A stretch of 64,000 nt of DNA, taken from Halorubrum tebenquichense DSM 14210 (lineage in GTDB: Archaea > Halobacteriota > Halobacteria > Halobacteriales > Haloferacaceae). Each line of letters opens with the position of its first letter. Position 1 is the stretch's first letter. The notes below the pieces were generated by a model, which did no database searches, had not been told where the DNA came from, and saw only the letters and a list, made by a program, of their open reading frames with translations. The translations under genes and the position numbers were made by a program. The stretch is from NCBI RefSeq assembly GCF_000337415.1, contig NZ_AOJD01000027.1, forward strand, positions 1-64,000, read 5' to 3'. Below are positions 9,616 through 42,526 of the stretch, in pieces.

Positions 9616-10437
9616 CTACTCACACGCCTCCTCTGCCAGCTTCTCGCGTAGTTCGGCCGCCGCACGCCCGAACTGGTCGGCGAGGTATGGCGTTCCAGCT
9701 GTCACCCGCTCGTCGAGGAAGCCGACGGCGTCTGTGGCTCTATCGGTCTCGCTGGTCGCGGCCGCGGCGCAGTCGACGTACCCGTCGAGCGCTTGTGCAA
9801 ACGCCTGTGAAAAGTGATCGTACGCGCCGTCGACACGCTCCATGTTGTCGTCGAGCGACTCAACGAGCGCTCGGTAGACGGTTGTCGCCGACGCGTCTCG
9901 ATCCTGATCGCGGTACTCGTCTGCGAGATCGAACCACTCCGAAAAATCGATCGGCTCGAAGACGACGTAGTACTCGGGGTTTGTCCGCTCGAACTGTCGG
10001 TCGATCTCGGCGCGAAGCTCGTCGACTGACCGCGTCGACGACTCGTCGAACCGGGCGAAAAACCGGTCGCGGAGTGTGGTGTTGGTCGCCAACGTCTCGC
10101 GGAGGAACGCTCGGAGGTCGTCGGCGTCGGCCACATTGAGTGCAGCTTCGAGGCGATTGCCCTCGTCCGACGGAGCGTCACCGACACATCGAAGCAGTAC
10201 GGCGACGACATGCTTACACGCGCCCGGTCCGTCGTACGGACAGTCGCACCACGGGTCGAACCCCTCGCCCGCGAGATCGACTCGAACGTCGTACTGACGG
10301 CTGCCACTCACGACGGCAGTCACAGTGGTGTCGACGCGGTCGATATCGCGGATACGACTCTCAGCGAGATAGGTCTCGCCGCGTTCGAAGACTGCGTCCG
10401 TACAGATATCTCGGACCGCGTCTTCGGTGATGTCCAT
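9616..10437 (-). CDS. SWIM zinc-finger protein
   Basis: 273 residues from the ATG at 10437; an upstream in-frame start would add a Cys/His-rich leader and is not favoured. Residues 64-76 give the SWIM signature CxCx7CxH (CDCPYDGPGACKH), preceded by a strand-rich segment reading VTAVVSGSRQYDVRVDL. The remaining 190 residues are predicted helical and resemble the helical region of haloarchaeal SWIM proteins. SWIM fingers bind DNA or protein, and relatives occur with helicases and transposases. It marks the last chromosomal-type gene before the accessory island. Confidence 0.8.
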   Translation of the reverse strand: MDITEDAVRDICTDAVFERGETYLAESRIRDIDRVDTTVTAVVSGSRQYDVRVDLAGEGFDPWCDCPYDGPGACKHVVAVLLRCVGDAPSDEGNRLEAALNVADADDLRAFLRETLATNTTLRDRFFARFDESSTRSVDELRAEIDRQFERTNPEYYVVFEPIDFSEWFDLADEYRDQDRDASATTVYRALVESLDDNMERVDGAYDHFSQAFAQALDGYVDCAAAATSETDRATDAVGFLDERVTAGTPYLADQFGRAAAELREKLAEEACE

Positions 10438-10721
10438 GTGTCCGTGTAGGTTTTGTCGCAAACCGCAAAAGTGCGTCTGGTCGAATTCACCACAGAGGCC
10501 GGGACCAGACCGACGTCGTGAATCCACCGTAGTACGCTCAGAGGCGATGTACCAGAACTGCCGATATTCTCTGTCCCGGAATATCGGCTCGAACAGCTAT
10601 TATGAGCAGTATACGCGCCCAAAGGTGCGTTCTCAGCTCCCATCACGAACGACAAGAGTAGTATTCTAATTATAATAGTCTAAACTATAACTTTGTAGCA
10701 CTCGAACGGGCTCGAAGAGGT

Positions 10722-10862
10722 ATGCGGAAGATCCACCACGGGAGGTCGGATACGGCATATCATGGCACATTCGAATTCCACCGGACTATCGATGGTGACT
10801 ACGTCAGTCTCGACGCGAAATTCACTGACGGTCAGCTCGACGAGATTTCACGTAACAAGTGA
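10722..10862 (+). CDS. Possible 46-residue protein
   Basis: ATG at 10722, TGA at 10860-10862. The peptide starts MRKIHHGRSDTAYHGTFEFH and ends KFTDGQLDEISRNK. An AT-rich promoter-like stretch (TATAATAGTC and TATAAC around 10670-10690) lies just upstream. The charged, strand-like composition and high third-position GC favour a real gene, but the length is too short to be certain. No family is recognised. Confidence 0.5.
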   Translation: MRKIHHGRSDTAYHGTFEFHRTIDGDYVSLDAKFTDGQLDEISRNK

Positions 10863-10954
10863 ATCGAGTGTACGCCACCTAGCAGAGGAACGAGAACGGC
10901 TGCGAATCATCGATCCGCGCTGGTTTACAATTCCCGCGAACGAGACCCACAATA

Positions 10955-11899
10955 ATGACATACAACACCCCTGAACCGGCTGAATTGCCACCGTTGAACG
11001 AGGAAACGCCCGCACCGGATGACCCTGTAGCCGTTGAGTGGTGGCACAGGTACGATGACGATGGATCTCCCGAGTTGGACACGTTCCATGGATTCCACAA
11101 TGCTACTCGGATCACAGACGGGGATCCGCCAGCCGTAGAGACAGGCGAACTCGTCACCGAGTCCGGGAAACAAGTAACAGCAGCACAGCACTCCGACATC
11201 TCGACGGAGTCACGATACCTCTATCTGACACACGAGGAGGCACTCGACCGTGATCTGTCTCCGTGTACCGAGTGCTTCCCAGCGTACGCGACGGAGATGC
11301 GCCTGACGAAAGAACGGGAAGACGGTGGGCTGTTAACCGAGTCCGGTGTCAAAGGTGCGGTGTTTCTCGTCCAGATACGCTCCGATCTGAGCGCGCCCTG
11401 GAACGTTGACTCCGTCCACGAGACGTACACATCGATGCTGTATCGGGCACGCGCGATTCGCCAACAGGTCGGGTCTGCTGCGGATCGTCTTCGGCTCTCG
11501 TATATGCCGGTACGGCGGTGTGACTATGGATCGTTTGATGACGCGATGGGTTTCGAGCCAGCGATGGACCACGTCTCGGAGCTTCGTGAAATTCAGCCCA
11601 AGGAACTACCGGCCGTAGGTGAGTCTGTTGGTGAAGAAATCCTCTCGACACCGGTAGAGATCGATAGTCAGTATACTGCGGCACAGAAGTCAGGACCGTC
11701 GATCGTCCACCGAGCCGAAAATCCTCCCTGTGGCTACGAGCGTGAGTTGGGATTCGATGTGTTCGGTGAGGCCGACGAGGATCTGCGAGACCAATTACAG
11801 CGCGAGGCCCAGACGATATCGGATGTGATTGAGGGCGGAACTGTGGTTAAATACTGCTCTGAGTGTTTTCCCGAACTCGCCAATTGGGCCGCAGAGTGA
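10955..11899 (+). CDS. Unknown protein with two CxxCF motifs
   Basis: 314 residues. Two spaced motifs, SPCTECFPAYAT near residue 107 and YCSECFPELANW near the C-terminus, look like two halves of zinc-binding or redox-active sites, each preceded by a similar acidic segment. The region between is rich in charged residues, and no enzyme motif is recognised. The acidic composition is normal for the organism. It is the first sizeable gene in the accessory island, with no operon partners. Confidence 0.65.
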   Translation: MTYNTPEPAELPPLNEETPAPDDPVAVEWWHRYDDDGSPELDTFHGFHNATRITDGDPPAVETGELVTESGKQVTAAQHSDISTESRYLYLTHEEALDRDLSPCTECFPAYATEMRLTKEREDGGLLTESGVKGAVFLVQIRSDLSAPWNVDSVHETYTSMLYRARAIRQQVGSAADRLRLSYMPVRRCDYGSFDDAMGFEPAMDHVSELREIQPKELPAVGESVGEEILSTPVEIDSQYTAAQKSGPSIVHRAENPPCGYERELGFDVFGEADEDLRDQLQREAQTISDVIEGGTVVKYCSECFPELANWAAE

Positions 11900-12685
11900 C
11901 CCTCTCTTGGCGTGATTTTCAGCATGACTGTCACGCGATACCCGATCTGTCGAGATAGTACTTCCATCATTCGACGCTTCGAGTTGCCTCGATGAGCTGT
12001 CCTGTATCACCCGCATAGTTGTGTGGTGCCTTCCAGCCTGAACGATCGTAGATTTTCAAGAGAAGAGATTCGCTGTTCCCTTACTCACAGATCATCCGTC
12101 TCTAGTTAATACTCTCAGTAATACCATCTAGGCCCAGTTTCCGCTCGAATTCTGTCGATTTACCCCTGCTACGGCAAGAAAACCTTGTTCCTAGAGTTGT
12201 TTTATTGCTTGGTTTCGGTGGGTATAGTACCTGTATCGTTTAATTAGCATTTTCTAATATTGTTAGATATAATTTCACATCTAAATATTACTATCGGGCT
12301 TAACTAAAGACGAATGACTCACAGATGGCCGGTAAAGTGTTACCCCGAGTAGTATAACCGAAGGATGAGTATAGTATGTGTTATCCGCACAGTTAGTGTG
12401 AGTAGTGGGAGTCCTAGTCCATGCTAAACCCCATGACGGGGGGCCTCCCACACTATCTGTGACCGATTGAATATAAGAATAATAAGCCCCCACCTGAACG
12501 GATCGTGATAAAAGCACTAAGCCGACGGCCACCACGGAGGGAACGCACTCATCTCCATCACACGGACAACCACCTTGGCAAGCAACTACACCACTGACGA
12601 TGTCGACGGTCGCCTGCACCGTATCGAGCGATGCCATCCCCGGGGAGCATCCACGACTCGGAGGAGAGCGAATCCAACAATCGTA
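11900..12685. other. AT-rich gene-free stretch
   Basis: No supported gene. The region contains several AT-rich runs near 12200-12300 and a hairpin-forming segment at 12404-12451. Its right end, read on the minus strand, continues in frame with sequence beyond the insertion sequence (see the interrupted ORF at 12686-13629). Confidence 0.5.
12404..12451. repeat. Two-tier hairpin
   Basis: GTGGGAG (12405-12411) pairs with CTCCCAC (12445-12451), and inside it CCCC/GGGG flank ATGAC (12429-12441). It could be a terminator, a small RNA or the relic of a transposon end. No nearby gene explains it. Confidence 0.35.
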
Positions 12686-12693
12686 TCTGAGAG

Positions 12694-13621
12694 TGCTCTG
12701 TTGAATAGACATTGAGTCACGGTTACAGCGGCTCACACCGTGGTTCTATGTTGGTGATGGCGAACATGAGGACAATTTCACGGAACTGTCGATACCAGCT
12801 CAGCGCTCGCACGGCATCGCCGAGCGAGCGCTTCGTTGTTGAGTAGGATGTTTCGGCCATCCACCGCTGAGCGTAGCCGTTTGCTCGATAAGCACGTTGT
12901 TCGCGGCTGCTTTCGCTGATGAGCCGCGGTAGTGAACGAGGTACTCAACGTCATGTGCAGCGATTTCGTACTCGGTATGCCAGTCTTGGAAGCCGTTGTC
13001 GGCGGCGACGGACTGCAGGTCGTCCGCGTTTCTGCGGACGACCTGCGGTCCGGTCTTCGTATCGTGCTTCCACCGTGCTGCGATGTGAACATCGAGAACA
13101 GCAAGCGATTCCACATCTGTCAATGTCGTCGCTTTGAGCGTCTGTATCGTCCGTCCGGCTCGCTGTCGGAAGTACGATGACGCACGTCGCCGGTCGAAAA
13201 ACGTGCTGTCGAGCGCAGCGTGCCCAGACTGCGGGTGCTGCTGCGCGGAAACGCGCAGCAGCGCCCGCCACACCCACATTTTCAGCCGATCAAACGATTT
13301 GTAGATCGTCGTGTGATCGGGAAGATCATCCGGATCTAGGTCGAGAGCGTCACGAACTTCGGCCATGTACTTCAGCCGATTTGGCGTTTCACGGTAGCTG
13401 CGCTCGTCTTCGACCCGAAAACAGTGAAGGACGACGTGAACCCAGCGGGCGAACCCGCCGCTGGCGGGCTCGCCCGCGTACTTCCCCAACGCTTGTTTAG
13501 CTAGGTGACGACACTGCTCGATGAAGTCGAGGATATCGATTTCCATGGTAGGTTCGATTTCCTCGGCTTCACCCTTCTAAACCGGTGATATCGGCTGATA
13601 AGATCGCTCTTCAACAGAGCA
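12694..13621 (-). mobile_element. IS5-family insertion sequence, ISH1 group
   Basis: Terminal inverted repeats TGCTCTGTTGAA (12694-12705) and TTCAACAGAGCA (13610-13621) enclose 928 bp. An exact 8-bp target duplication TCTGAGAG flanks the element at 12686-12693 and 13622-13629. The 8-bp duplication and the transposase type fit the ISH1 group of IS5. The exact duplication points to a recent insertion. Confidence 0.92.
12723..13546 (-). pseudogene. IS5-family transposase with internal frameshift
   Basis: The first frame starts MEIDILDFIEQCRHLAKQAL at 13546 and runs to 12800. It carries the DDE motifs ALDSTFF (first Asp) and AADNGF (second Asp). The expected C-terminus lies in another frame, from about 12893 to the TAA at 12723-12725, with AQRWMAETSYSTTKRS (the Y-R-E signature Glu) and WYRQFREIVLMFAITNIEP. 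A one-base change near 12890 breaks the gene. The two halves fit a normal single-ORF transposase, so this is more likely a mutation or sequencing error than programmed frameshifting. Confidence 0.85.
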
Positions 13622-13629
13622 TCTGAGAG

Positions 13630-14349
13630 GGCTTTCTTATTGTCGGTCCCACTGAGTGCAACCGCCGCACTTTCAGCGACTTGTCTTGCCTTCTCATAAC
13701 CGACTGGAACGACGAGACAGAGACGCAGTACGATTAGACTCGTTATCCCTATCCACCTCGAATTAATCGTAGTCTTCTCACCGTCCTGCGTTGGTTATGT
13801 TGGATAGCGATCATACCGCGGATCTACGAGATCGTCCATCCGATCTACAAGAAACTGATACTCCACCAATGGAGAAGTCGATCGCCAGATACTCAGATGT
13901 CGTACATAATAGACTGACGATTCGAATCCGCCCGGCAGGCGCAGCAAACCCACAACGCAGATCTGCTGGGACGCGTACAAGCCCCAAGTTGTGCGTGTCT
14001 CACCGTTCCTGTTTTGGTTTGTTTCTCATATCTCCGATAGATAGTGCTACGGCAGTTAGCTTCCCATAGATGTTGGTCATTATTATTCTTATATACAATC
14101 GGATACCGGTAGTATGTCCTACTTTCGTCCTGCGGTTTAGTGTTCTTTAGGATGGAGCATGGACATCCTACTATTATCTAGATTCACCCTAGTATGTCGT
14201 AGTATCTCAGTAGCATGAGTCACAACTCCTCTCAGATAACGGATCTGTAGTGGCCCCGAGTAAACTGGCTGTTGTCGCGGTCGTCTCAACAAGTTAACTA
14301 CCTAACTGGTCCTCCACAAAAGGAGTCGTAGATTATCCGAATCACAAAA
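13630..14349. other. Gene-free stretch right of the IS
   Basis: Besides the tail of the interrupted ORF (13630-13790), nothing coding is supported. The DNA is AT-richer than the flanks and has repeated short TAGTATG-like words near 14110-14210, without a clear repeat unit. Confidence 0.5.
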
Positions 14350-15138
14350 TTACTCAGAATACTGATAGCCAGCTTTCAGCTGATCGAGGATCTCCACAAG
14401 CATGGCAGCGATCCCAACCGAGAGAACCGCCCAGAGGACGCCAACAACAGGTCGTGTCAGAAAACCACTAGTACTTGCTGCGAGTCCAGTACACAGTACA
14501 GTCAGTGCGACACCAAGGACAACAAAACTCACCCCAGCGTCCCAGGGGTTCGAGAGTCGACCGCCCCGTATCTGAGCAGGGATGACAGCCGGTCGATCAG
14601 CGGTGTTCGGAAGTGGCCCCAGCATCGCCTCGGTATCATCTGTTGCGGTCGGATCGTCCATGGTGATCCGGTCACGGATGTTATATGGATGTGTGCGGTC
14701 AAACGCCGGGGCGACGTCTTGGTTTGATGCGAGCCCGTACTTTGTGGTTGACCCGTCTTTGACTCGTTCGAGTAGTCCGGCTTTGACGAGGCCATCGATC
14801 GTCTTCCAGTAGGTGTCTTTATCTGGGTTTTTTGTATGGCCGAGTTCGAACTGCTTATGTTGGTCAATGAGGTCTTTGAGCGGGAACCATCGTCGGTCTG
14901 TCGAGCCGACACGCAGTTGAACTAAACAGAACGCAGTTACCGGATAGAGACTATGGCGCCGTTGTCCGTTACCAGCGATTGATGCGTATCCACCGGTATT
15001 GCTCGCAGCTAGGCTTGGGAAGATGTCCTCAATGGTAGTTGCCTCAGACTGGTCAATCTGATCGACGACCCACTTGGGCAACAGCGGTTTCAGATTACAC
15101 ATAAGAGGACGGTCGATATTGAACTGTTCTCCAGACAT
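14350..15138 (-). CDS. Membrane protein with winged-helix-like domain
   Basis: 262 residues from the ATG at 15138 (MSGEQFNIDRP). Residues about 60-155 contain a helical DNA-binding-like region (TYWKTIDGLVKAGLLERVKD with a following wing). The C-terminal 60 residues hold two transmembrane segments (FVVLGVALTVLCTGLAAS and VVGVLWAVLSVGIAAMLVEI). A soluble N-terminal HTH fused to a membrane hairpin suggests a membrane-anchored regulator or sensor (inference). The family is not recognised. It is divergent from the tandem paralogues to its right. Confidence 0.65.
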   Translation of the reverse strand: MSGEQFNIDRPLMCNLKPLLPKWVVDQIDQSEATTIEDIFPSLAASNTGGYASIAGNGQRRHSLYPVTAFCLVQLRVGSTDRRWFPLKDLIDQHKQFELGHTKNPDKDTYWKTIDGLVKAGLLERVKDGSTTKYGLASNQDVAPAFDRTHPYNIRDRITMDDPTATDDTEAMLGPLPNTADRPAVIPAQIRGGRLSNPWDAGVSFVVLGVALTVLCTGLAASTSGFLTRPVVGVLWAVLSVGIAAMLVEILDQLKAGYQYSE

Positions 15139-15890
15139 TATTATCGCGTAGAGCAACGAGCCATATTATATCTTTTTCTGAGTGTACTGAAACATGAACT
15201 GCTATGGCATTTTCCCGAGTCTAGACAGCTCTTGCGTTGTTTTAAAGAATTTATTTAATATATATCATTTATTTTCTACGACACTCCTGTGTCGTCTCAG
15301 TTCAGTTGGGATTCGCCACCGGCTCGGTCCACTGCGAGTGGTTGTATTCAGGTAGGTAATTGGTCCACCTCAGGCGAGGCGTTTCGACAACGACGACTCA
15401 CGACTGGAATATCATCGGTACGCTACGAGTGGTATCTCGTATACGATGCCGTTACCGGAAACTCAATCACAAACGCAAATAGCGGCAAATTCATACGTAT
15501 TAACCGTTTAATGACCTGATTAACCAAATATAAGTGTACTGTACGAATATAAACATAGCGACTAATCAAGGCTCGTCGATCGGTCGGTACGGATTATCTT
15601 TTCATCCCCCCTCTTTCGAGCCACACGACACGAGAACGCACACACCGACGGGCGAATCAACATGTCGCAAAGATCTGCCTCAATAGGCGCTAACACAGTA
15701 ATACACGGATACAAATGTACACTCAACCGAATTCACAGAGACGCCACCGTCAGCTGGTTGCGGCAATGACAACCCACGTGCTGGCGTCAGGAGCACAGGT
15801 ACCAATTACACGACCACCACTGGGTGAGCAGCAACACCCCACCGATGGCGATGGTGCGCATCGTTGCCAACGGAGCTAATTTCTGGGGAG
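15139..15890. other. Gene-free, AT-rich promoter region
   Basis: Contains AT-rich tracts around 15240-15290 and 15490-15560 that could hold promoters for the divergent genes. A plus-strand frame at 15289-15519 (76 residues) has no domain and unlikely composition, so it is not called. Confidence 0.5.
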
Positions 15891-18044
15891 ATGTTCCAGT
15901 ATGTCTCAAGCAGTGCAGAGCCACCGGACGCGCAGACGCCAGCAGTAGCTCGCCATGGGGCGATCCATTGTTGTCAAAGCGGTGTCGACGATCCCTCACT
16001 GCGGATCTCGAGGTCGCTTGCGGGGCCGATCTGTCGAATTATCACCCGCTTCCATCAAGACGCGATCTGGAGATCGACTGAACTGCTCGTCTGTACCGGT
16101 GTCGACGTACCGACGATCACATTCCATAGTAGCGGGCTCGATACGCACAATACAGGGTGGATAGGAGATGCTGGCGGAAACCCACCCACCGAATCAACCG
16201 AGGAACTTGCAGCACTGTGTATCGAGGAGTTACCGGGCTGGTACGGCGTCGAAATGGGAACGCTCGTACTCGATCCAGTCGGGCTTACTGCAGTGCCGAC
16301 AAGTCGGCTCGTTGTTCGGGAGGGGTCACCAGCCGCAGCAACACTAGAATCGCTGCTGCGGACAATTTTCACCCGCAACCACAACCGTAATGTCCCGACT
16401 CTCTGTCAGCTGCTCATTCGAACGACAGCAATAGACCCGTTTGAGGTAACGCTCCGCGTGGCTGAACTCGGGTCGACGTGTCGTCCACTCGGTCGGCACG
16501 GGCTTACATCGTCGCTTACGTCGCCGGTTCGTTGTCCGATCGATGCGGAAACGCCAGCCGAGATCACCTCAAGTCGGTGCTTGGCCGACGACGACTGGGA
16601 AACGGAACCCGAATATACTCAAAGTCGGACGCCAGGACTCGCAGCTCGCGACGGGCTCACCCCGGCCTCCCAATCGGCGATGGTCTCTGCACGGCTTCGA
16701 CGCAGTACCCACGAATTCGCCGCGCTGCTGGAGGGCTCTGCAGGGACTGAGCCGTATGAATCGCTCCCGGTTACGCCGACACTGTCACTGTCACGAACGG
16801 AACTGGAAGCGCTGCTGGACGTGACGCCGCATTATGAATCGTGCTGCTGGCCGTCGAACCTGCCACGGTCTGAGCCGCGATTCATCCGTGAGACGACTCA
16901 TACGCATGCTGCTGGGACGGACCATACCTCGGTGTTAGCTGGTCCCTCCCAAACGATGTCCCAGAGTGGCGTCCAAGACGGGACCTCGATCATTGACTTT
17001 GTCGACGGGTGGCTCGCGGAACGTGGGATCTCCCCGGAGTCGGTTACCGACCGGTCGCGTGGTGACCCGCATTTTCGGGGACATCCGCACGATGAAAATG
17101 GTCCTGTCGTGGTGGTTGATCCGAATCATGACGGGGCAGCTGATGTCCTCACGACCGCCGGCGAACTCATTATGACGGCCAATCGGGCGCGTCGGCAAGA
17201 TGCGCATTTGCTCGTCGTGACACCCTCAGAACAGACGGCCGAGTGGGCCCGCGACGTGCTTACGGCCCCATTTGTCCGCCGTCGTGGCGACGACTACCAG
17301 CTATATACACTTCCGATGTGCGTCTTCAACAAGCGTGGGAAGTTCATCTTCACCCCCCGGCGGTCAGCGCCGCTGTACTGGGCTGTCTCCGATGACGGTC
17401 ACCGGGTGTTGTATCATGGCGACCACCGTCTCGCATCGGGACCGGCGACCGCACCAATCCAGTCGTACTCATTCGAGACGCCGCGAGTGAAAAAACAGGA
17501 CGGATCACTGGTCCTCACGACTCCTGACGGTGCTGTCCGATCACGGTTCGCTTCGAGAGAGGCGCTTGGAGCGGAGTATCGACCTGTTCCTAATCCTATC
17601 TTGCCGATCCGACCGCTGTTTTGTACAGACGTCACGGTCGTCTCCCAAGCTGGGAGCTCCCTCCGTGAACCACCTGCACCACTACAACAGATCGAGGAAA
17701 CGGGCCAGCGGCGATGCGAAGCACACTTACAACATGCGCTAACGGAGTTTGTTGAGCTGTACACTCAAAAGACGCATACGCGAGCTCCTGGGGACGAACA
17801 GAGCGCCCCACGATTCGCCGAGCGCTTCCGGAATTGGTATGATGGACACTCGACTCGGTCACCGCCGAGTAAGCTGGGTGTCGCTGACCTGATACCGCGG
17901 AGTTGGGGGCGAAACAGTATTACTGACGCTGGCGCGCTGACCCGCCATTCGTGGTGGACGCCTACTGAAACGCTCTCACTTCCGCTCGCACACGGCCAAG
18001 CCGGCAAGAGAGCGACCACAGCTAACCATTCGCAATCAAACTGA
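15891..18044 (+). CDS. Tandem paralogue A, large protein of unknown function
   Basis: About 717 residues from the first ATG at 15891; a TTG at 15864 would add nine residues. It shares three blocks with the next gene: near its residue 130, LVLDPVGLTAVPTSRLV (partner IDLGPVGKMPVPTSRLL); then IQSYSFETPRVKKQDGSLVL (partner VQSYEFHTPCVKKDGSEWVL); and a C-terminal helical block FAERFRNWYDGHST matching RRRFKTWYNEQTD. The central block that aligns with the partner's nuclease-like core reads GPVVVVDPNHDGAADVL here and lacks its acidic residues, so A may be a non-catalytic partner. The C-terminal block resembles the winged helix that ends D5/P4-type primases. Function unknown. Confidence 0.65.
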   Translation: MFQYVSSSAEPPDAQTPAVARHGAIHCCQSGVDDPSLRISRSLAGPICRIITRFHQDAIWRSTELLVCTGVDVPTITFHSSGLDTHNTGWIGDAGGNPPTESTEELAALCIEELPGWYGVEMGTLVLDPVGLTAVPTSRLVVREGSPAAATLESLLRTIFTRNHNRNVPTLCQLLIRTTAIDPFEVTLRVAELGSTCRPLGRHGLTSSLTSPVRCPIDAETPAEITSSRCLADDDWETEPEYTQSRTPGLAARDGLTPASQSAMVSARLRRSTHEFAALLEGSAGTEPYESLPVTPTLSLSRTELEALLDVTPHYESCCWPSNLPRSEPRFIRETTHTHAAGTDHTSVLAGPSQTMSQSGVQDGTSIIDFVDGWLAERGISPESVTDRSRGDPHFRGHPHDENGPVVVVDPNHDGAADVLTTAGELIMTANRARRQDAHLLVVTPSEQTAEWARDVLTAPFVRRRGDDYQLYTLPMCVFNKRGKFIFTPRRSAPLYWAVSDDGHRVLYHGDHRLASGPATAPIQSYSFETPRVKKQDGSLVLTTPDGAVRSRFASREALGAEYRPVPNPILPIRPLFCTDVTVVSQAGSSLREPPAPLQQIEETGQRRCEAHLQHALTEFVELYTQKTHTRAPGDEQSAPRFAERFRNWYDGHSTRSPPSKLGVADLIPRSWGRNSITDAGALTRHSWWTPTETLSLPLAHGQAGKRATTANHSQSN

Positions 18045-18251
18045 ACAATATATGATACGCATACAACATAATCAGATCGACGTACAGCGCGGCAGTCGAC
18101 AGATTCCACGGGGAATCTGTCGATTGCGTTCTCAGGCTGCTATCTCGACCCGACAAATAACCCAGCACTGGCGAGGCAGCCACCGCTCATTGCTGAGCAT
18201 GGTTGTCTGTGTCAATTCACCGACTCGCCGGCTTCGAACGGACACCAACCA

Positions 18252-20597
18252 ATGAATCAACGTTCCAATATTAGCACCTATATCGATGAAGACGGCACTC
18301 AACGGGTATGTCGGCTTGGTGCTGTCAGACTGATGTTTCCCGGACTTGCCGACGACGCCGACGACCGCCAACTCGAACGGTTGCTGACGTTTGATGATGT
18401 CGCTGAAGACATCCTCGACGAGTACGGGATCGACCTGCTCGAGTTGCTGACGTGGCCGGGGGAACTCCAACAGGAGTATTTTCTTATCGGTCACAGTGAC
18501 CAACAGACGGCCGATTCGCATATCGAGCATCCGGAGGAATCAACCTCGGATACCGCCGATGACGCTGCGAGTACTGCCGATAACCAGACGACACTGCCAG
18601 CGGTAACTGACGGTGGTGACGACGATGACGACGGCCCGGGATCGTCGGACGGAGAGCCATCGCAGCCGGTTTCAGACGGGAGAGATGGCGACCGAGACAC
18701 GCGAGCTGAACGCATCAAAGCGATCATCGACGACCACTACGGCGATCGCATCGGGACACAGATCTGTGCCATTGATCTCGGGCCGGTCGGAAAGATGCCG
18801 GTCCCGACAAGCCGACTCCTCCAGCCGAAGAACTTCTCTTTCGACCGGCCAGACACCGCCAAAACGTACGCCTCGGCTGAACTCGTTCACGAACTCAACA
18901 AGGACCGTGTTTCGTATCTACACCAGAGCTTGTTGGAGCCGGCCGGCTCCTCAAAACCACAGGACTATCTCGTTTCCTCGCGGCTTGCGCCGTTTGGAAC
19001 GAGCCATGGAATTGTCACCGAAGATGACCTCACGCGGCATCTCGAGGCAGATAACGAGTACCGGATCTCGAACTACGTACCCGGTCCGTCCAAAGACAAT
19101 TGGTCGCTACCGATAGACGCGCATAAACGCTACGCGAATAGACAAACCACGCATCCATCGCAACTCGAACAGCTTGATGAGATGAGTCTTCGTGATGGAC
19201 CGATCGAAGCAGTTGCTGCGGGCTTTCCTGAGTATCGAGCACTGCTTGCAGGTCGAATCCACAACGACGATCGGTATGAAGAACTCTTCGGAGTCTTCGG
19301 ACGGATCCCAATCACGAAATCGATGCTCGGCCATTTCTTCACCATCTTGCCCGCGTACTTTGAGGTGAGTTCGTTCGGTCGGCTCACTACTGTCGACGAA
19401 CCGGAGATCTCGACGGAACGACTCGGCAGTGATGCCCCCGGAACCCGACAGTCGTATGGAACGGATCGTGCAGAAGATTCGACGACAATGGCCGCTGGCT
19501 CTGATGAAGAGTCAGACAAGCATAAAGAGTTGGTCATTGAACGGATCAAGTTTCTGCTCCGGCATGGCCACAAAATTCTCGCTGTTGATCAAGACGTCAT
19601 CACAGTCGATCTCGCGGATCCTGATCCAACAGAGACTCAATATCTGGACGGCGAGTCTCGACCTGATATTGTGAGTAAAAAGGACGGGACGATCCACTTC
19701 CATGAGATCGAAGTCGAAAACGACTCGAAGCCGGCAGCGCTGCTCACGAATCTCGCGCGGGCCGACTATCACGATCACCCTGTCCATGTCATCACCGAAT
19801 CACAGTCTGAAGCACAGGGCAAACTGTGGTCGGATCCGCCCGAAGCCAAAGATGGGCCCGTGAGTATGACGTTCAAACGCACCGATGAAGAGGGGACTAT
19901 TACCTATAACCAACGGAACGATGTCTCGACTGGAGACTGTTGGTATCTACTGCCTCGAGACCTCACCGAGTCGACGTGGCGAGTGTTGCCGACGGATACC
20001 GCCCAATTGGTTGGCCCAGGTGGATCTATCCTCGCAGAGGGCGATATCGAAGAACCGGTTCAGTCGTATGAATTTCACACCCCCTGTGTCAAAAAAGATG
20101 GCAGCGAATGGGTGCTTGAGTCAGCCTCTGGTGAGGAACTTCGTCGACGACGAACAAAGGATGCTGCCGCAAGCGGCTACACGTATATTCGGAAGCCACT
20201 CATTCCAACGCGATTCGAGTATCTTGAGAACACGACCGTCGAGTTCCAGTCTGAAGATGGGTTCACCATCTTTCGGAAGCCACCCCTGTGGGAACAGCCA
20301 CAGCAAAGTGCCTCAATTCGGTATGAGGAGGCTGCGAAAGCGTTCGTTGAGCTAGTCACGATTGAACAGGCAGATGCTGAGATTCCAATTCCCATGCTCC
20401 GACGACGGTTCAAAACATGGTACAACGAACAGACAGACTTGAAAGAGCCGAATGAAACGTGGTTTGGGCGCGCTCTGCGTGCCTACTTCGAGGTTGACGA
20501 CGAGGACGACCACAACAAAACCTTGGTTAATCGGACCTTCCGGTTCACAGAGGGACTCGTCTCACCGGATCTATCTTTCATCAAGGACGACGAGTAG
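18252..20597 (+). CDS. Tandem paralogue B with PD-(D/E)xK-like core
   Basis: 781 residues from the ATG at 18252. Domains: N-terminal region (1-80), a disordered acidic linker (85-150, DDDDD run), a conserved block with PVGKMPVPTSRLLQ (about 175), then a nuclease-like core. The core has RPD at 470-472 followed by HEIEVE at 484-489, the layout of a PD-(D/E)xK site but with Glu where the Lys is expected. It ends with a winged-helix-like block LRRRFKTWYNEQTD...TWFGRALRAYFEV, similar to the tail of D5/P4-type primases. It is 207 bp downstream of paralogue A and on the same strand. A role in replication or defence of a mobile element is possible; neither is shown. Confidence 0.65.
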   Translation: MNQRSNISTYIDEDGTQRVCRLGAVRLMFPGLADDADDRQLERLLTFDDVAEDILDEYGIDLLELLTWPGELQQEYFLIGHSDQQTADSHIEHPEESTSDTADDAASTADNQTTLPAVTDGGDDDDDGPGSSDGEPSQPVSDGRDGDRDTRAERIKAIIDDHYGDRIGTQICAIDLGPVGKMPVPTSRLLQPKNFSFDRPDTAKTYASAELVHELNKDRVSYLHQSLLEPAGSSKPQDYLVSSRLAPFGTSHGIVTEDDLTRHLEADNEYRISNYVPGPSKDNWSLPIDAHKRYANRQTTHPSQLEQLDEMSLRDGPIEAVAAGFPEYRALLAGRIHNDDRYEELFGVFGRIPITKSMLGHFFTILPAYFEVSSFGRLTTVDEPEISTERLGSDAPGTRQSYGTDRAEDSTTMAAGSDEESDKHKELVIERIKFLLRHGHKILAVDQDVITVDLADPDPTETQYLDGESRPDIVSKKDGTIHFHEIEVENDSKPAALLTNLARADYHDHPVHVITESQSEAQGKLWSDPPEAKDGPVSMTFKRTDEEGTITYNQRNDVSTGDCWYLLPRDLTESTWRVLPTDTAQLVGPGGSILAEGDIEEPVQSYEFHTPCVKKDGSEWVLESASGEELRRRRTKDAAASGYTYIRKPLIPTRFEYLENTTVEFQSEDGFTIFRKPPLWEQPQQSASIRYEEAAKAFVELVTIEQADAEIPIPMLRRRFKTWYNEQTDLKEPNETWFGRALRAYFEVDDEDDHNKTLVNRTFRFTEGLVSPDLSFIKDDE

Positions 20598-21326
20598 TAT
20601 CTCTAGGGACTGTAGATTCGAGCGGATAGTAATCTTTCTTTTTGTCCATCCCAGGGAATTAGTATGCCGTGGTTCGGCCGAGTTCTCCGGGTGCTCAACA
20701 CCGAGAAAAGCGGGCAGATAACTTCTGACCGTAAGTGGGGTGGATCACTGAGGGTCTGATTAGGTTAACTACCTCACCCACGGTGACGTGGGGCTTATCA
20801 GCGAACTCGATTTGAGCTGACGTCAATTGGACGAGACGAATCCACGGTTCGGTATCACCCCTTCTAGCCTCAGGGCGAGTTGGCTGTCGTCCGACGCTGA
20901 GACAGCTGTATCCCCCGACAGATGTACCGCCAGCGAACATGCTTTCTCGCGGATTCTCCAAACTAGGAGTGGGTCACTCCGAAGGTACGCCTGTGGAGAC
21001 TGTGCTCGCGACCGGAACAGCGGATGTCCCTGTGACCGCCGAGGCTGCTGACGATTGCCCGATCTGCTCAAGTTTGATCGCGACAACTCGCTCACCAGCC
21101 ACGGATGCTGTCCTCCGCGATCCGGCCAATCACGGCACGCTGTCGGCGGCAAAGGTTATCTAGACGAGATGGCGACAGCGGAACGAGCGAGCGCAATGAT
21201 TGCGCTTGCGAGCGACATCTATGCTCAGATTCTCAATCCTGTCGGGGTGTCCCACGAGTGTCTGTGTAGGTGAGTTCTGTAGAGCTGACCCGGGAAGTTT
21301 TCACAATGTACAATTAATTAGCTATT
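20598..21326. other. Mostly non-coding stretch
   Basis: Apart from one possible small gene (20939-21163), nothing coding is supported here. A minus-strand frame at 20695-20961 lacks domains or a plausible start. AT-rich sequence at 21290-21326 probably holds the promoter of the next gene. Confidence 0.45.
20939..21163 (+). CDS. Possible small CPxC protein
   Basis: 74 residues starting MLSRGFSKLGVGHSEGTP, with a single CPIC motif in AADDCPICSSLI and a hydrophilic tail. Codon use is host-like. With one CxxC only it could form a dimeric zinc site or be a fragment of a larger zinc-ribbon protein. No family is recognised, and no ribosome-binding site or clear promoter was seen. Confidence 0.35.
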   Translation: MLSRGFSKLGVGHSEGTPVETVLATGTADVPVTAEAADDCPICSSLIATTRSPATDAVLRDPANHGTLSAAKVI

Positions 21327-22007
21327 ATGAAAAGAGCAGGAGTAGTCTTGGACTTTCCGTTTCCCGAAGAGCGGGTGTTCCGCTATCAGGCAATGCAGGA
21401 TATCCTCCATCACCTCGTGAACAATCCATTCGAGGAGTTCACACAGCAAGAACTCGCATCGATCACAGGAGCGGATGTCTCGTCGGTTTCCCGTTCAGTC
21501 ACCCTCCTTGAGAAACTCGGTGTGATCGTTGTAAACGACCAACGACCTGCTCAGATCACAGTCGATGCCGATCATCTTCAGCGATCAGATCCCATTTTTT
21601 CGATACCACAGCCGAAGTTCCGGACGCCGATCCAGTCCTATCTTGATGATCTCAGGAACCGAATTCAAGCGAGTGAGGAAATTGACGAGCTCGTCGGGAC
21701 CATTCTTTTCGGGAGTGTCGCTCGTGGAACAGCAGACCGGCGAAGCGACATTGACCTACTTGTCATTGTTGATGGGGATCTCACCTACGGACGGCGCATC
21801 TGTACCTCGCTCGCGCGTGAGGTTGAAGACAAATCATTCGACGGTCATCGATACGAATTTGAAGTTCTCGTTGAAACGCCAGAAACAGCGATCTCACACG
21901 GAGCTGAACTCTCCGACCTCTTTGATGAGGGATTGGTTCTCACCTCTTCTCCCCAGCTACAGGACCTGCGGCAAGACATTTATCGTCGGTCTCAAGCGGG
22001 TGCGTGA
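21327..22007 (+). CDS. HTH-nucleotidyltransferase (MNT-domain) protein
   Basis: 226 residues. The N-terminal winged helix (residues 30-75; FTQQELASITGADVSSVSRS) is fused to a minimal nucleotidyltransferase domain with GSVARGTADRRSDIDLLV: Gly129-Ser130 and the metal-binding Asp141 and Asp143. The DxD pair and GS motif are complete, so catalysis is possible. MNT proteins usually act as antitoxins that AMPylate a HEPN toxin, but no HEPN gene is adjacent. The fused HTH suggests self-regulation. It is followed immediately by a structured RNA-like element and then an AbiE-like pair. Confidence 0.8.
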   Translation: MKRAGVVLDFPFPEERVFRYQAMQDILHHLVNNPFEEFTQQELASITGADVSSVSRSVTLLEKLGVIVVNDQRPAQITVDADHLQRSDPIFSIPQPKFRTPIQSYLDDLRNRIQASEEIDELVGTILFGSVARGTADRRSDIDLLVIVDGDLTYGRRICTSLAREVEDKSFDGHRYEFEVLVETPETAISHGAELSDLFDEGLVLTSSPQLQDLRQDIYRRSQAGA

Positions 22008-22012
22008 GCCGC

Positions 22013-22085
22013 CTCGGGGTCAAGTGGTTCGAGACGCGGAGCGTCTCGTCATCACGGAAATCAAAGATTTTCGGACGACCCCGAG
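22013..22085. ncRNA. Cloverleaf-like inverted-repeat element
   Basis: A 9-bp outer stem CTCGGGGTC (22013-22021)/GACCCCGAG (22077-22085) encloses two hairpins: CGAGACGC/GCGTCTCG with loop GGA (22030-22048), and GGAAATC/GATTTTC with loop AAA (22056-22072). The 73-nt three-way junction starts 6 bp after the stop codon of the preceding gene. It may be a 3' UTR structure, a terminator, a small RNA or a non-autonomous transposon end. Strand is unknown, as it folds on either. Confidence 0.45.
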
Positions 22086-22200
22086 ACACTCGGCCTGCTT
22101 CACTGTAAAGAATACACTCGCGAAACCCGTTACTGGGTAGCTAGTTTGTCAACCTAAATCTAGTAACCCATATATACGATTAGGCTTGTAGTATACATAT

Positions 22201-23151
22201 ATGATTTCAAATGCCGAGCTTGCTGTGATCGACGCACTGAGCACCGGCCGCGAAGCGACACCAGCCGAACTCGCGACAGAGATCGAGTATTCACAGGCAC
22301 ACATCTACGAAGTGCTCGATACGTTACACGCAGCGGGACTCCTCACCGAAGCCCGTGGCCCAAACAACTTGCGTCGCGTCTCCGTCACGGATCATCCGGT
22401 CATCGAAACATATCGTCGGCTACGGGCGAAACTCGGACATATCGAGTGGGCTGACCTCCTTACACCCGCCACCCTTCGAGTGTGCTGGTTTCTCGACGAA
22501 CCACGTCGCGTCACAGACATCGCAAAACGACTGAATATCACTCGGCAGAGCGTCCACAAAGCGCTGTCCCCACTCAAGGATCGAGCGATGCTGTCCCCGT
22601 CCGGTCCCGAGTACGCGGTGAGTGATGATCTCGCGCCACTGCTGTCGTTCACTCAGGCCGTCGTGACCTTCGAACACCGATCGCGGGCACGAGAGATCGC
22701 ACCCAGTGCGACTATCGAATGGTGCGACCCAAAACGAGCACTCATCCGTGTACAGACTTCGGAAGATACAGCGGCGCTGCTTGACGCACCTGATTGGCAG
22801 GTAACTGGACTCGGTCGGTTCGAGGAGTACGGACTACAGTTTTTCCTCGCAGGTGAACCTGCATTCTGGTATACACCCAACGAAGAACTCACGCCTGTCG
22901 ATATCGTGTGTCACACGCTCGTCCTCAATAGTGAATCTCGCCGCATCAGTTATGCGATGTTGTTGATCGACAAGTTGGATATCGACCGAGAGAAACTCAC
23001 AGACACAGCAACGTGGTATGATCTAGAGGCAACAGTCGCTACAATGTGCCAGGCAGTTCAGGGCGAGTTCGACGGTTCACAGGATCCTCCCGTCGTCTTG
23101 CCGAGTGAATCAGAATATATCGCGCTCAAAGAACAATACGGAGTAGTATGA
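22201..23151 (+). CDS. Winged-helix protein, probable AbiEi-like partner
   Basis: 316 residues starting MISNAELAVIDALSTGREAT. Two helix-turn-helix units are visible: residues about 5-60 (TPAELATEIEYSQAHIYEVL) and 95-150 (RVTDIAKRLNITRQSVHKAL). The C-terminal half is an unrecognised alpha/beta domain. Its stop overlaps the next start (ATGA), so it is translated together with the nucleotidyltransferase gene that follows. This HTH-then-nucleotidyltransferase order matches AbiEi/AbiEii-type antitoxin-toxin pairs. If so, the HTH protein would be the antitoxin and repressor, now left without its toxin because the second gene is split. Confidence 0.65.
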   Translation: MISNAELAVIDALSTGREATPAELATEIEYSQAHIYEVLDTLHAAGLLTEARGPNNLRRVSVTDHPVIETYRRLRAKLGHIEWADLLTPATLRVCWFLDEPRRVTDIAKRLNITRQSVHKALSPLKDRAMLSPSGPEYAVSDDLAPLLSFTQAVVTFEHRSRAREIAPSATIEWCDPKRALIRVQTSEDTAALLDAPDWQVTGLGRFEEYGLQFFLAGEPAFWYTPNEELTPVDIVCHTLVLNSESRRISYAMLLIDKLDIDREKLTDTATWYDLEATVATMCQAVQGEFDGSQDPPVVLPSESEYIALKEQYGVV

Positions 23152-23270
23152 CTGTATTCAGTGGCGGCCAGGCGATCAAAGAATTTCTGTCGGAGTTCGA
23201 CAATTGGCTATCGGAGTCTGTGACTGTGTATCTCCTCGGCGGGTCGGCAATGACACGGTGTGAGCGGAAG

Positions 23271-23290
23271 CCCACCCATTCACGGGTGGG
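23271..23290. repeat. Left-end hairpin of the TnpB element
   Basis: CCCACCC (23271-23277) and GGGTGGG (23284-23290) pair across a 6-nt loop, 15 bp inside the left end. Such imperfect hairpins are the TnpA recognition structures of IS200/IS605 elements. Confidence 0.7.
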
Positions 23291-23396
23291 TGTGAGCGGA
23301 CACTCCGACTCAACAATCTACTGTCCTATTGCCCGGTGGTAATTCCCACCGCATCTACAGCCTTTACAATCCAGTAATCCCACACTATTCGCGGTA

Positions 23397-24755
23397 ATGC
23401 GGCGGGTCAACATCTTCCGAGTCAGCCCCCTCTCGGAGAGAGACGAGCTGATCCTCTACGAGGTGTTGGACGCGTCCGCTGCGCTGTGGAACGAACTCAC
23501 CTACCACCGCCGCCAACACTTCTTCAACAATCGAGACGTGTGGAACGTCGACGCCGACGAATACCGTGTGAAGTACAAGGGTGTCCTCGGCTCCGCCACC
23601 GCTCAACAACTCATCCGCAAAAGCGACGAGGCGTGGCGGTCGTTCTTCGCCCTCATGGAAGACGGCGAGAATCCCTCGCCGCCCGGGTACTGGAAGGACG
23701 AGGATAGCGGAGAGCGCACGCTCCAGACGCTCATCCGCAACGATCAATACACCCTCAAGTGGGGCGAGCGATCGCGGCTGGAGATCCCGGTCGGACACGA
23801 CCTCAAGGAGAAGTACGGTCTCGGATACCACGAGCGACTTCGACTCGAAGCACGTGGGAACCCGCGGTGGGAAGGAAGTCAGGGCCGGTTGGAACTGGTG
23901 TACGACAAGGACGCCGAAGCGTTCAGGGCACGACAACCCGTCTCCGAAGCTACTCCTCGACGGGACGAACCACTGGCCGCCGCCGCGGGCGACGACGGGG
24001 TGGTGGCAGCCTTGGACATCGGCGCGAACAACCTCGTCGCCGTCACCACAACCACCGGCTACCAACGTCTCTACCACGCACGCCCCCAATTCCACCGCTT
24101 CCGTCGCACCACCAATCAGATCGCCGCCCTCCAAGAACGCCTCGAGTACGGTACGTGGTCAAGCCGGCACATCCGCCAGATGTATCGGCGGCGCACCGAA
24201 CACGTCCGTCACCTTCAGGACGCCCTCGTCCGCGATCTTGCGGAGTGGTTGGCTGAACACGGTGTTGGCGAGGTGATCGCTGGCGACCTCTCGGACGTGC
24301 TGCAGGAGCACTGGTCGGCGCGGGTGAACGAGAAGACCCACCAGTTTTGGAGTCACGGCCGCTTCCGCCGCCGCTTACAGGAGGTGTTGGAAGGCGAGTA
24401 CAGCATTAGGGTGCGAGAGGTCAGCGAAGTCGGTTCCTCCTCTACGTGTCCGGACTGCGGCAGCGAGAACATACACCGTGAGGGCGACCTGCTCACGTGC
24501 TACGACTGCGGTTTCGAGGGGCATTCGGATTTGGCGGCGTCGGAGAACTTGCTGATAGTGAACGACGGGTCGATGGCTCGGCCCGCGGTCTCCCGAGAGA
24601 ACACGACGGAGAGGGCACACCGATCGGTGGCCCGCCTCGAGTGGAACGATCACCGCTGGCGACGGCGGGATCACTCGACCAAAGCGGAACCCGAAAACCA
24701 GAGTACCCACGGCGACGCGGGGAAATTTGCCTCCGGTGGCGCAGGCATCGCCTGA
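23397..24755 (+). CDS. tnpB: TnpB, RNA-guided nuclease-like protein, possibly lacking one catalytic residue
   Basis: 452 residues. N-terminal wedge-like region, then RuvC-I ALDIGANN (Asp207), the region VGEVIAGDLSDVLQ where RuvC-II would normally supply Glu (here Gly296-Asp297), a four-Cys zinc finger (CPDCGSENI...CYDCG) and RuvC-III GHSDLAASENLL (Asp378). TnpB cuts DNA guided by an omegaRNA from the element's right end. In canonical members the RuvC-II motif reads E-D/N-L, so the Gly here could weaken or abolish cutting unless the neighbouring Asp substitutes. Some haloarchaeal TnpBs may share this GDL form. The C-terminal tail beyond the RuvC core is unusually long and acidic-basic mixed. 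Confidence 0.85.
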   Translation: MRRVNIFRVSPLSERDELILYEVLDASAALWNELTYHRRQHFFNNRDVWNVDADEYRVKYKGVLGSATAQQLIRKSDEAWRSFFALMEDGENPSPPGYWKDEDSGERTLQTLIRNDQYTLKWGERSRLEIPVGHDLKEKYGLGYHERLRLEARGNPRWEGSQGRLELVYDKDAEAFRARQPVSEATPRRDEPLAAAAGDDGVVAALDIGANNLVAVTTTTGYQRLYHARPQFHRFRRTTNQIAALQERLEYGTWSSRHIRQMYRRRTEHVRHLQDALVRDLAEWLAEHGVGEVIAGDLSDVLQEHWSARVNEKTHQFWSHGRFRRRLQEVLEGEYSIRVREVSEVGSSSTCPDCGSENIHREGDLLTCYDCGFEGHSDLAASENLLIVNDGSMARPAVSRENTTERAHRSVARLEWNDHRWRRRDHSTKAEPENQSTHGDAGKFASGGAGIA

Positions 24756-24770
24756 ATCACCCACGCGGAG

Positions 24771-24805
24771 GAATCCCACGGCTGAAGCCGTGGGAGGAAG
24801 TCAAA
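24771..24805 (+). ncRNA. 3' end of the TnpB omegaRNA (reRNA)
   Basis: CCCACGGC (24775-24782), loop TGAA, GCCGTGGG (24787-24794), then AGGAAGTCAA to the element end. By analogy with TnpB systems the RNA comes from the end of tnpB and this hairpin. Bases after 24805, within the nucleotidyltransferase gene, would be the guide. No experimental evidence is available here. Confidence 0.65.
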
Positions 24806-25657
24806 GTACAGGGACTGAGAGACCAAACTGAGGATATCGATCTTACAGTGGGGGTAATCTCTGAATTCGAGCATGTACACCAGACGCTTACGTCGCAGGG
24901 GTTCACGGTCATCGACGAACCAACGGAGTCGTTCGAGGGCGTTAGGAAAACCGTCGAACTGTATCACGAAGAGCGCGGGTTTCGGATCGATCTCTTCGAA
25001 CGGCAGATCGTTGGGAAAGTCTGGATCACCGATCGGATACACGACCGGGCCAAAGAGTTCTGGACTGGGAAGCACGTGACAGTACTCATCCTCTCAGATG
25101 AGGATATGTTCCTGCTCAAAGCGGTCTCTGGCGGTGACGTGGCGAGTGGCCGTCGACGTGATATCGAAGATATGCGGAAATACGCCCAGCGTGGGTTGAA
25201 CTACGAGGTGATTTGGAACGAGATTGATGCACAGCGACCATTTAATACCGGTACGACTGAAGCACGACAAATCCGGGATCGCTCACATCCGCTGTTTGCG
25301 ATCGAAATGGCCGTGAGTTCTCTCTCCGGACTGCCGAACACGTTCACCACCCAGATCGAAGAATTTACGACGGAGTTCGAAGTCGAATATACGATTCTTG
25401 GTGCTCTCGACGCTGATATCAACGACATCGAAGTGATTGGAGAACGAGTCCTCGCAAATGTACAAACTCTGTCGGAGGATCACGCAAGCGCCGTCGACGA
25501 AGCGGTTGACCGACTTATTACGAAACAGGTTATCAAGCGGGACAGGAATATGATTCAGCTCCGGTGAGGAAGCGCTTCAGCCCCGGTTGTTGTTTCCCGT
25601 CTCGTGAATGATTCGGTGGATAGCTTCGACGAACGATTCACGACGGCTCTAGCACCC

Positions 25658-26314
25658 CTACTCCCTAAAATCGTACTCGCTCTCGCGGGCACTGACGTAT
25701 GTCGTGTTGCCCTCTCGATCTGGGACGTAACACGGACCGTCACCGGCCCTGTAGAATACGGGTGCCTCGATGTCGAGGCTGGTTTTCCGATGGAGCAAGA
25801 GCGGTAGTCGGTCGCGCAACTCCCGAATGGGCGGTTCCCGCCGCGCGTAGAGTGTGCCGCGTGGTGGTCGGCGTTTCGTTAACGGTCGGAGACGATCTTT
25901 CCAGAGATCCGGTTCTGTGAGAATCCGGACATCGAGTTGTTGGGCCAACTTCCACGCGCCCGCGGTCACGTGCCGGGCGATAGCGAGGACAGGCATCGCT
26001 CTCGCGAGGGCGGCCCGGAGGGCGATCGCTTCGACGGCGTCACGCTGGACGGGTGTGGTGTGCCAGTCTTTACACTCGACGACGAGGAAGTCCGTGGGGT
26101 CACCGCGGAATTCGTCGCGGCGCGCGATGACATCGGTTTCGAGCCCGAAGAGCTGCTCGTTGCGGGCTGTGGTGTACCCCCACTCCTCAAGGGTGTCAGC
26201 GACTTCCTCTTCGAACCAGCGCCCGTTGGTTGGATCGTGATCTGGATCGGTCGTCTCGTCAGGCGTGCCGACGGTGTCAATCGCATCAGTCAGGTCGCGA
26301 GTGTCGTCACTCAT
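25658..26314 (-). CDS. Restriction-endonuclease-like (Mrr/PD-(D/E)xK) protein
   Basis: 218 residues from the ATG at 26314. The N-terminal 110 residues carry a PD-(D/E)xK nuclease site: helix NGRWFEEEVADTLEEWGY with Glu36, then LETDVIARR with Asp61, then DFLVVECKDWH with Glu80-x-Lys82. The helix Glu plus D/E-x-K set matches Mrr-like or Holliday-junction-resolvase-like nucleases. The C-terminal half (TLYARREPPIRELRD...) is unassigned. The start overlaps the preceding 81-residue gene by 8 bp. It is the last gene of a six-gene overlapping operon. Whether it acts as a defence nuclease or processes element DNA cannot be told. Confidence 0.75.
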   Translation of the reverse strand: MSDDTRDLTDAIDTVGTPDETTDPDHDPTNGRWFEEEVADTLEEWGYTTARNEQLFGLETDVIARRDEFRGDPTDFLVVECKDWHTTPVQRDAVEAIALRAALARAMPVLAIARHVTAGAWKLAQQLDVRILTEPDLWKDRLRPLTKRRPPRGTLYARREPPIRELRDRLPLLLHRKTSLDIEAPVFYRAGDGPCYVPDREGNTTYVSARESEYDFRE

Positions 26315-26552
26315 CGGCTTGCTCCTCCACGATGGCGGCTGCTTCGGCTTGGACGGCCGCTTCTTCGAGGGCAGTGGCGATCGTTTTGGCTTCTGCTGGG
26401 GACAGCACCGCGTAGATGACGTCACGGTCGTCACCGAAGCTGAGCGTCACCCGTGTGTCGTCATCAACCGTATCGATTTGGATGCTGCCGAGCATCTCCG
26501 GCGGGCGGTCGCGTCTGATGACCGTCTCCAGATCGAGTGCGGGCTCGTTCAT
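26307..26552 (-). CDS. Small acidic protein of unknown function
   Basis: 81 residues (MNEPALDLETVIRRDRPPEM). An alternating strand pattern (SIQIDTVDDDTRVTLSFGDD) is followed by an Ala/Glu-rich helix (AEAKTIATALEEAAVQAEAA). It overlaps the upstream 952-residue gene by 4 bp and the downstream nuclease gene by 8 bp. The coupling suggests a partner or inhibitor of the nuclease, but this is inference. Confidence 0.65.
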   Translation of the reverse strand: MNEPALDLETVIRRDRPPEMLGSIQIDTVDDDTRVTLSFGDDRDVIYAVLSPAEAKTIATALEEAAVQAEAAAIVEEQADE

Positions 26553-29407: not shown

Positions 29408-29439
29408 TAGTGATCACCAGGAGGTGGGGGTCTGGTGGA

Positions 29440-32061: not shown

Positions 32062-32204
32062 GAGTAGGCGGTGTTTGCGGGGTGGGAAATACTTTGTCGT
32101 CAGCGATCCGGATCTGAGAGTCGGAGAGTATCACCAATCGCTGTGATCGCCGGTTAGGTACTCTCGGTAGTCCGGGTCTGTGAACGTGAACGTCGCGAAG
32201 AAGG

Positions 32205-33101: not shown

Positions 33102-33111
33102 AAAATACAAT

Positions 33112-34326: not shown

Positions 34327-34404
34327 TAGTTGCGATAAGATGTTCACCCAATAAGTAATTTCTTGAATTACACCAGATAGTGGTAGTGAAAAATATAATA
34401 GTAC

Positions 34405-41483: not shown

Positions 41484-41516
41484 TACTGATAGTTAGTGTT
41501 GTATTAATAGGTTCTA

Positions 41517-42517: not shown

Positions 42518-42526
42518 TAGGTTCTA

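Follow-up and report, generated by a model that had tools for sequence, protein, structure and literature searches.

What are the two large, adjacent genes of Halorubrum tebenquichense DSM 14210, one resembling a nuclease and the other an apparently degenerate copy of it, and what could they do together? The genes lie in a stretch of 64,000 nucleotides, which we call the window. We refer to them as A and B:

15891-18044, + strand: gene A, the pseudo-nuclease paralogue, 717 aa; the frame is also open upstream from 15828, so the start is uncertain
18252-20597, + strand: gene B, the paralogue with an intact PD..ExE pattern, 781 aa

Both open reading frames are uninterrupted at these coordinates, which come from an earlier note on this DNA, and the two proteins are paralogues from end to end. 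In profile-profile comparisons with hhalign, the N-terminal halves of A and B aligned over 311 columns (E 2.5e-36) and the C-terminal halves over 324 columns (E 3.4e-38). When the window's own genome was queried with B by tblastn, A was recovered at 2.5e-11. The earlier note had read three ordered blocks common to both proteins as the trace of a duplication. The blocks are present, and the similarity of the two halves is far beyond chance. The first block reads DPVGLTAVPTSRL in A and GPVGKMPVPTSRL in B, the second IQSYSFETPRVKK in A and VQSYEFHTPCVKK in B, and the third FRNWYD in A and FKTWYN in B. The family had been thought to lack a known name, and neither A nor B matched a family in Pfam, PHROGs, NCBIfam or PADLOC. 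For the two proteins, a search for relaxase families returned no Pfam family at E values up to 1, and PADLOC models matched none of the six proteins scanned (A and B of the window and four relatives). Near relatives of the window with a name include Halorubrum sp. Atlit-26R (L003) as well as Halorubrum ezzemoulense DSM 17463 (L004), where B is 78% identical.

The resemblance to nucleases is centered in one domain, intact in B and altered in A:

16953-17300, + strand: domain of A (residues about 355-470) that aligns with the nuclease-like domain of B, catalytic residues gone
19485-19886, + strand: nuclease-like domain of B (residues 412-545), with residues invariant in 28 of 28 B proteins

The two segments align at E 3.2e-8 (hhalign). 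Residues H424, G439, P471, D472, E485, E487, N500 and R503 of B are invariant in all 28 B homologues, among them the three acidic residues that the earlier note had singled out. In the A family, equivalents of E485, E487 and N500 are missing from all 26 proteins, 16 of which have D at position 487. The loss of acidic residues claimed for A holds throughout the family for the two glutamates; the PD, with D472, is retained by at least one A protein (L072). The whole pattern H..G..PD..ExE..N..R occurs in 28/28 B proteins, in 0/26 A proteins and in 22/25 of the coupling ATPases discussed below.

B had been assigned to the PD-(D/E)xK nucleases. Its layout fits that assignment, with the final K replaced by E. 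B resembles members of this group such as AHJR-like (PF18743) and Mrr_cat (PF04471) in the order of H, PD and ExE followed by a helix (N..R). It differs from them in that E stands in the place of the motif K, and the sole significant profile match is that of one relative (1 of 35 nuclease segments) to AHJR-like at 0.0012. An ExE centre occurs in BamHI. The residue pattern therefore stands, but no structure or strong profile match backs the fold. A search of PDB sequences with the B profile gave no match. The nuclease segment gave 11 PDB matches, the best at 0.0088 to designed proteins, which were dismissed as chance, and the best solved nuclease was 4qbn at E 1.3. Mrr_cat, including a neighbouring nuclease of this type, had no similarity to the nuclease segments of the pair in profile-profile comparison. 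AlphaFold models of A and B, each built on three alignment rows, were unusable (pLDDT 32.1 and 29.6).

These results leave some room for the idea that B is not a nuclease at all, in which case the PD..ExE would mark a domain that binds a ligand or metal, and A and B would form a transcriptional or structural complex. Such a domain could have ExE in place of the usual (D/E)xK and, the one AHJR-like match apart, would be expected to yield no significant nuclease profile or structure match. It would not so readily explain why H, PD, ExE and N are invariant and correctly ordered in B as well as most coupling ATPases, why one relative matches the AHJR-like nucleases, or why the same ExE serves as the centre of BamHI. 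We consider this explanation unlikely. From the invariant residues we infer a nuclease fold and a DNA-cutting activity for B.

The pair was sought in 391 haloarchaeal genomes, a sample from a larger class. B was matched in 28 and A in 23 of these, a few weak matches being chance or the coupling ATPase. Thirty-three loci (the window, L003, L004 and L064-L093) were scanned with profiles of A and B. They include near-duplicates (L003/L004/L064 and L067/L068), and genes in the neighbourhoods were called by a home-made heuristic that missed at least one A gene, which was then added. The earlier note had asked whether the two genes always occur together: an A-type gene adjoins every full-length B on the same strand (28/28). 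Both genes are present at 30 of the 33 loci, and remnants of B stand alone at three (L073, L089, L091). At the 30 two-gene loci, A comes first in 18 and B in 12, and six loci (L077, L078, L080, L084, L085, L090) have a 4-nt overlap between A and B. L082 and L083 have a shortened A partner (338-350 aa, the C-terminal part only), and in L088 the A partner is frame-broken. A third degenerate nuclease-like paralogue, truncated, lies directly upstream of a B-A pair at L093:8612-9427 (+).

In a midpoint-rooted tree of 55 long members, the A proteins (26 rows) and B proteins (29 rows) fall apart with full support, and the sub-branching of the two matches. The duplication therefore happened before the pair spread. 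The two families have co-diversified: their distance matrices at 25 loci correlate in a mirror-tree test with r 0.963 (0/10,000 permutations), and r remains 0.927 (0/10,000 permutations) with 14 distant representatives. Across five loci, with dS near saturation, dN/dS was 0.26-0.35 for A and 0.12-0.20 for B. On these values we reject A as a pseudogene. A is degenerate, as had been claimed, in that its catalytic residues are lost, but it is not decaying; purifying selection indicates that it is maintained in spite of that loss.

Pairs were encountered only in haloarchaea and are carried on genome contigs, several of them longer than 3 Mb. A tblastn search of 72,556 plasmid records with A, B and a distant B found no match. 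Phages searched by tblastn with B gave no match and four single-protein scans of viral contigs gave no relative, on which grounds we reject B as a phage gene.

Where, then, does the pair come from? One match of B, L094, is a protein of 1459 aa with a HerA/TraG-type motor, and its gene adjoins a VirB4-like gene. The C-terminal 400 residues of L094 were matched by the B profile in two stretches (5.9e-24 and 3.9e-9) and by the A profile at 2.1e-10. The comparison was extended to 25 dereplicated coupling ATPases (TraG/VirD4-like) related to L094. With hhalign, the C-terminal half of B aligned to their C-termini at E 3.6e-27 (probability 99.7) and that of A at E 4.8e-13 (probability 97.9). What is new here is the homology, judged by profile comparison, of the A and B C-terminal halves to the haloarchaeal conjugative coupling ATPase, and for this part of the proteins we rate the kinship as strong. 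It is probably shared by the N-terminal part, where we rate it as moderate. When the N-terminal halves of A and B were merged and compared with those of the ATPases, the alignment had E 9.5e-5 (probability 58.6%, score 44.1), versus 0.57-0.62 and scores of 14.3 and 14.8 for reversed decoys; a second segment was collinear but non-significant, and one named coupling ATPase gave no significant N-domain match. Nothing in the N-terminal half of A or B corresponded to the motor segment of the 25 coupling ATPases (hhalign E 0.05-0.7), and a motor profile gave no match to any open reading frame, those of A and B among them, across the 33 fetched neighbourhoods. Since the C-terminal halves, and more weakly the N-terminal ones, align to the ATPase and nothing corresponds to its motor, A and B resemble coupling ATPases that lack this part. 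The earlier note had considered such a pair typical of defence or replication systems. The relative closest to A and B is the coupling ATPase of haloarchaeal conjugative plasmids, rather than a primase or a known defence protein.

The coupling ATPases match 193 plasmid records, 191 of which are typed as non-mobilizable by MOB-suite; we take this to mean that they have no recognised relaxase. Annotations of the matches in the plasmid records include 'conjugal transfer protein' and 'primase-like DNA-binding domain-containing protein', and several adjoin a 'VirB4 family type IV secretion system protein'. The full motif is also present in the coupling ATPase WP_255212613.1 of Halorubrum plasmid pCBA1229. 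A and B share with these ATPases a C-terminal module (the nuclease-like domain, a beta-rich segment and a D5-type winged helix) and probably the N-terminal domain. The coupling ATPase is a single protein of 1000-1600 aa with a motor between the halves and lies beside VirB4 on plasmids, whereas A and B lack the motor and form what looks like an active/inactive pair. Among the genomes covered by both scans, carriers of the pair with and without a close coupling ATPase both occur, with no clear trend by eye. Other haloarchaeal coupling ATPases (L141-L149) have a different C-terminal part with an H..D..ExE-like pattern; the nuclease segments match these ends weakly (hhalign E 2.9e-4, probability 40%), and one of them, L144, passes the Pfam coupling-protein model TrwB_AAD_bind.

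The last element of the shared module is the tail:

17724-17900, + strand: D5-like winged-helix tail of A with F..WY (residues about 612-670), by homology to the tails of B and the coupling ATPase
20322-20498, + strand: D5-type winged-helix tail of B (residues about 691-749), from the match of the B profile to the L094 tail (hmmsearch E 3.9e-9)

A tail of the D5/P4 type had been proposed for both proteins, and this is borne out through the homologous ATPase: the L094 tail matches Pox_D5 (PF03288) at 1.8e-6, with 28.7 bits against a gathering score of 21.4. A and B themselves had no Pox_D5 match above the Pfam threshold. They share with the D5-P4 primase-helicases a winged-helix-like C-terminal tail but have no primase or SF3 helicase domain. 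A small extra protein, c17 (six members, about 200-230 aa), consists only of the D5-like tail region and is encoded immediately upstream of the pair, or of a B remnant, in L067, L068, L070, L071 and L073. Three of these tail paralogues are:

L067:6931-7614, + strand: c17-type D5-tail paralogue
L070:7056-7670, + strand: c17-type D5-tail paralogue
L071:12436-13044, - strand: c17-type D5-tail paralogue

Upstream of the pair in the window lie a divergent gene and a pair of inverted non-coding arms:

14350-15156, - strand: gene c8 (262-268 aa), with a winged-helix-like N-terminal part and two C-terminal transmembrane segments
12372-12543, + strand: left arm, TAGKRTR repeats about 22 bp apart followed by ACCGATTGAATATAAGAATAA
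14012-14197, - strand: right arm, inverted and facing the left arm
12800-13546, - strand: insertion-sequence transposase between the arms (DDE_Tnp_1, 3.1e-10), missing there in relatives

Gene c8 is present in eight loci of the window's subfamily, and a similarly built protein, c31, in four loci of another; homology between the two is unsupported (E 0.015). The arms, about 110 bp each, contain the TAGKRTR repeats, ACTAAAnCnCnnGACG and ACCGATTGnATATAAGAATAA, together with an AT-rich stretch and promoter-like ATATAA boxes. Paired arms stand beside c8 in all eight c8 loci and in none of the remaining 25 of the 33 loci. They are 668-728 bp apart in seven loci and 1621 bp apart in the window, with the insertion sequence inside. 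The interval holds no apparent gene, as the ORF lists of L003, L065 and L067 have no common reading frame there. A 'hypervariable' interior was considered but does not count as evidence, since loci with this much synonymous divergence would no longer align there even if the DNA were neutral. Possible readings of the arms are two regulated promoters that face each other, or a site bound by the winged-helix proteins.

Of 263 listed neighbour proteins, 128 were scanned, chosen mostly by length and by hand. Orc1/Cdc6 (9), TnpB-like and DDE transposases, and DUF7342/DUF7437 proteins were prominent, and no integrase was seen within the 25 commonest families of these 128. Rfam models found nothing in window positions 10000-30000. 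Several other genes of the window are of note. At 25658-29407 (-), a nuclease of the Mrr_cat type (258 aa) adjoins a winged-helix protein of 952 aa (c4, c13); in pair-bearing genomes, 10 of 20 near-full-length copies of the larger protein are no more than 12 kb away from an A/B pair or remnant. A winged helix fused to a nucleotidyltransferase (NTP_transf_2, 9.4e-9) is encoded at 21327-22007 (+) and has seven members in the fetched loci. Genes resembling those for sugar nucleotidyltransferases, epimerases and glycosyltransferases, recognised by sequence and clusters, fill 31282-45565, a surface-glycan type of island beside that of the pair.

Could the pair serve the replication or maintenance of Orc1-type integrated replicons? 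A and B would then bind an origin-like site through their D5-type tails and process origin DNA with Orc1/Cdc6. Orc1/Cdc6 lies within 10 kb of the pair in at least 10 of 27 loci, against 1.7 expected (Poisson P 1e-5), an expectation drawn from 201 copies in 22 genomes among the matches listed, for loci that are not independent. Tails of the D5 type are otherwise known from replication helicases, and the related ATPase matches Pox_D5. The inverted arms, with their regularly spaced repeats and AT-rich stretch, could be part of an origin but are equally promoter-like. Furthermore, no helicase or polymerase partner was recognised, and among the matches listed 17 of the 27 loci, the window included, have no Orc1/Cdc6 within 10 kb. 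We think a role in replication improbable.

We propose instead that A and B are a nuclease pair, one member active and the other inactive, derived from a coupling protein of type IV secretion (T4CP). We are evenly divided on whether this molecular reading is right. The pair would be obligate and specific to haloarchaea, descended from a coupling ATPase or from an ancestor common to both. It would have kept the C-terminal module of the ATPase, and probably its N-terminal domain, with the motor absent. The winged-helix tails would anchor a heteromer of A and B at a specific site on the DNA. There the single intact PD..ExE centre of B would cut the DNA, and A would position the DNA or partners. 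With the A subunit catalytically dead, the predicted cut is a nick in one strand, not a double-strand break. Heteromer, nicking, DNA site and role are all parts of this proposal.

There are two main ways such an enzyme might be used. First, it may process DNA of the chromosomal island that encodes it, so that a resident conjugation machine can transfer this DNA; on plasmids, the intact coupling ATPase could carry out such processing in cis. This is the role we favour, if only tentatively. That these chromosomal islands have no type IV secretion genes would suit a mobilizable element. Against such an element, and in favour of the second use, defence, stand the lack of matches in plasmids and the lack of an integrase, which a mobilizable element that integrates should possess. 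Here the chromosomal pair would recognise or poison incoming conjugative elements, either by inserting its motorless N-domains into the coupling-ATPase ring of the plasmid or through the cutting of plasmid DNA by B. The contrast between the pair, found in genome contigs and in 0 of 72,556 plasmid records, and its motor-bearing relatives, which match 193 plasmids, would be expected of anti-plasmid defence. So would its patchy occurrence (28/391 genomes), flanks full of insertion sequences and small regulator or toxin-antitoxin-like genes, and a membrane-anchored winged-helix protein upstream at 12 loci. To contrast, PADLOC was blank for all six A and B proteins scanned, defence-family matches of the neighbours were mostly to TnpB-like Cas12f models, and no anti-correlation with coupling ATPases was visible by eye. 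A conserved cis element, other than a regulated promoter, would also be unexpected beside a nuclease that serves defence. Defence is accordingly possible though doubtful, and we weigh it about equally with island mobilisation, with replication lower than either.

How conjugation is initiated in archaea bears on the first of these roles. Archaeal conjugative plasmids have VirB4 and VirD4-like ATPases but no recognised relaxase, according to PMC12857230, a 2025 review, PMC9905601 and PMC3158045, and PMC9905601, PMC6563490 and PMC12857230 report none on the archaeal conjugative elements they treat. PMC3158045 suggests that archaea have relaxases of unknown kinds. The searched passages of PMC4158269, on archaeal dark-matter islands, contain nothing on the A/B pair. 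The earlier note knew of no description of the pair, and in open-licence PubMed Central papers we likewise found none of the pair or of the nuclease domain of the ATPase. Bacterial relaxases and accessory mobilisation proteins would resemble A and B only in the proposed task, the nicking of DNA at a bound site for delivery to a type IV secretion channel; A and B match no relaxase family and have another catalytic pattern. It would be a further and rather unlikely step to see in the nuclease-like domain and D5-type tail, fused in the ATPase or stand-alone in A and B, what archaea have long seemed to lack, an equivalent of the relaxase. It would be a nicking enzyme of a non-HUH kind that is either part of the transfer motor or separated from it, and in its stand-alone form, the pair, it would promote or oppose the mobilisation of chromosomal islands.

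Whichever role applies, the pair would represent a catalytic/pseudo-catalytic division of labour maintained across deep haloarchaeal divergence. Together with the coupling-ATPase domain, it offers named residues and named proteins with which to test how archaea, in which no relaxase is known, may prepare DNA for transfer.
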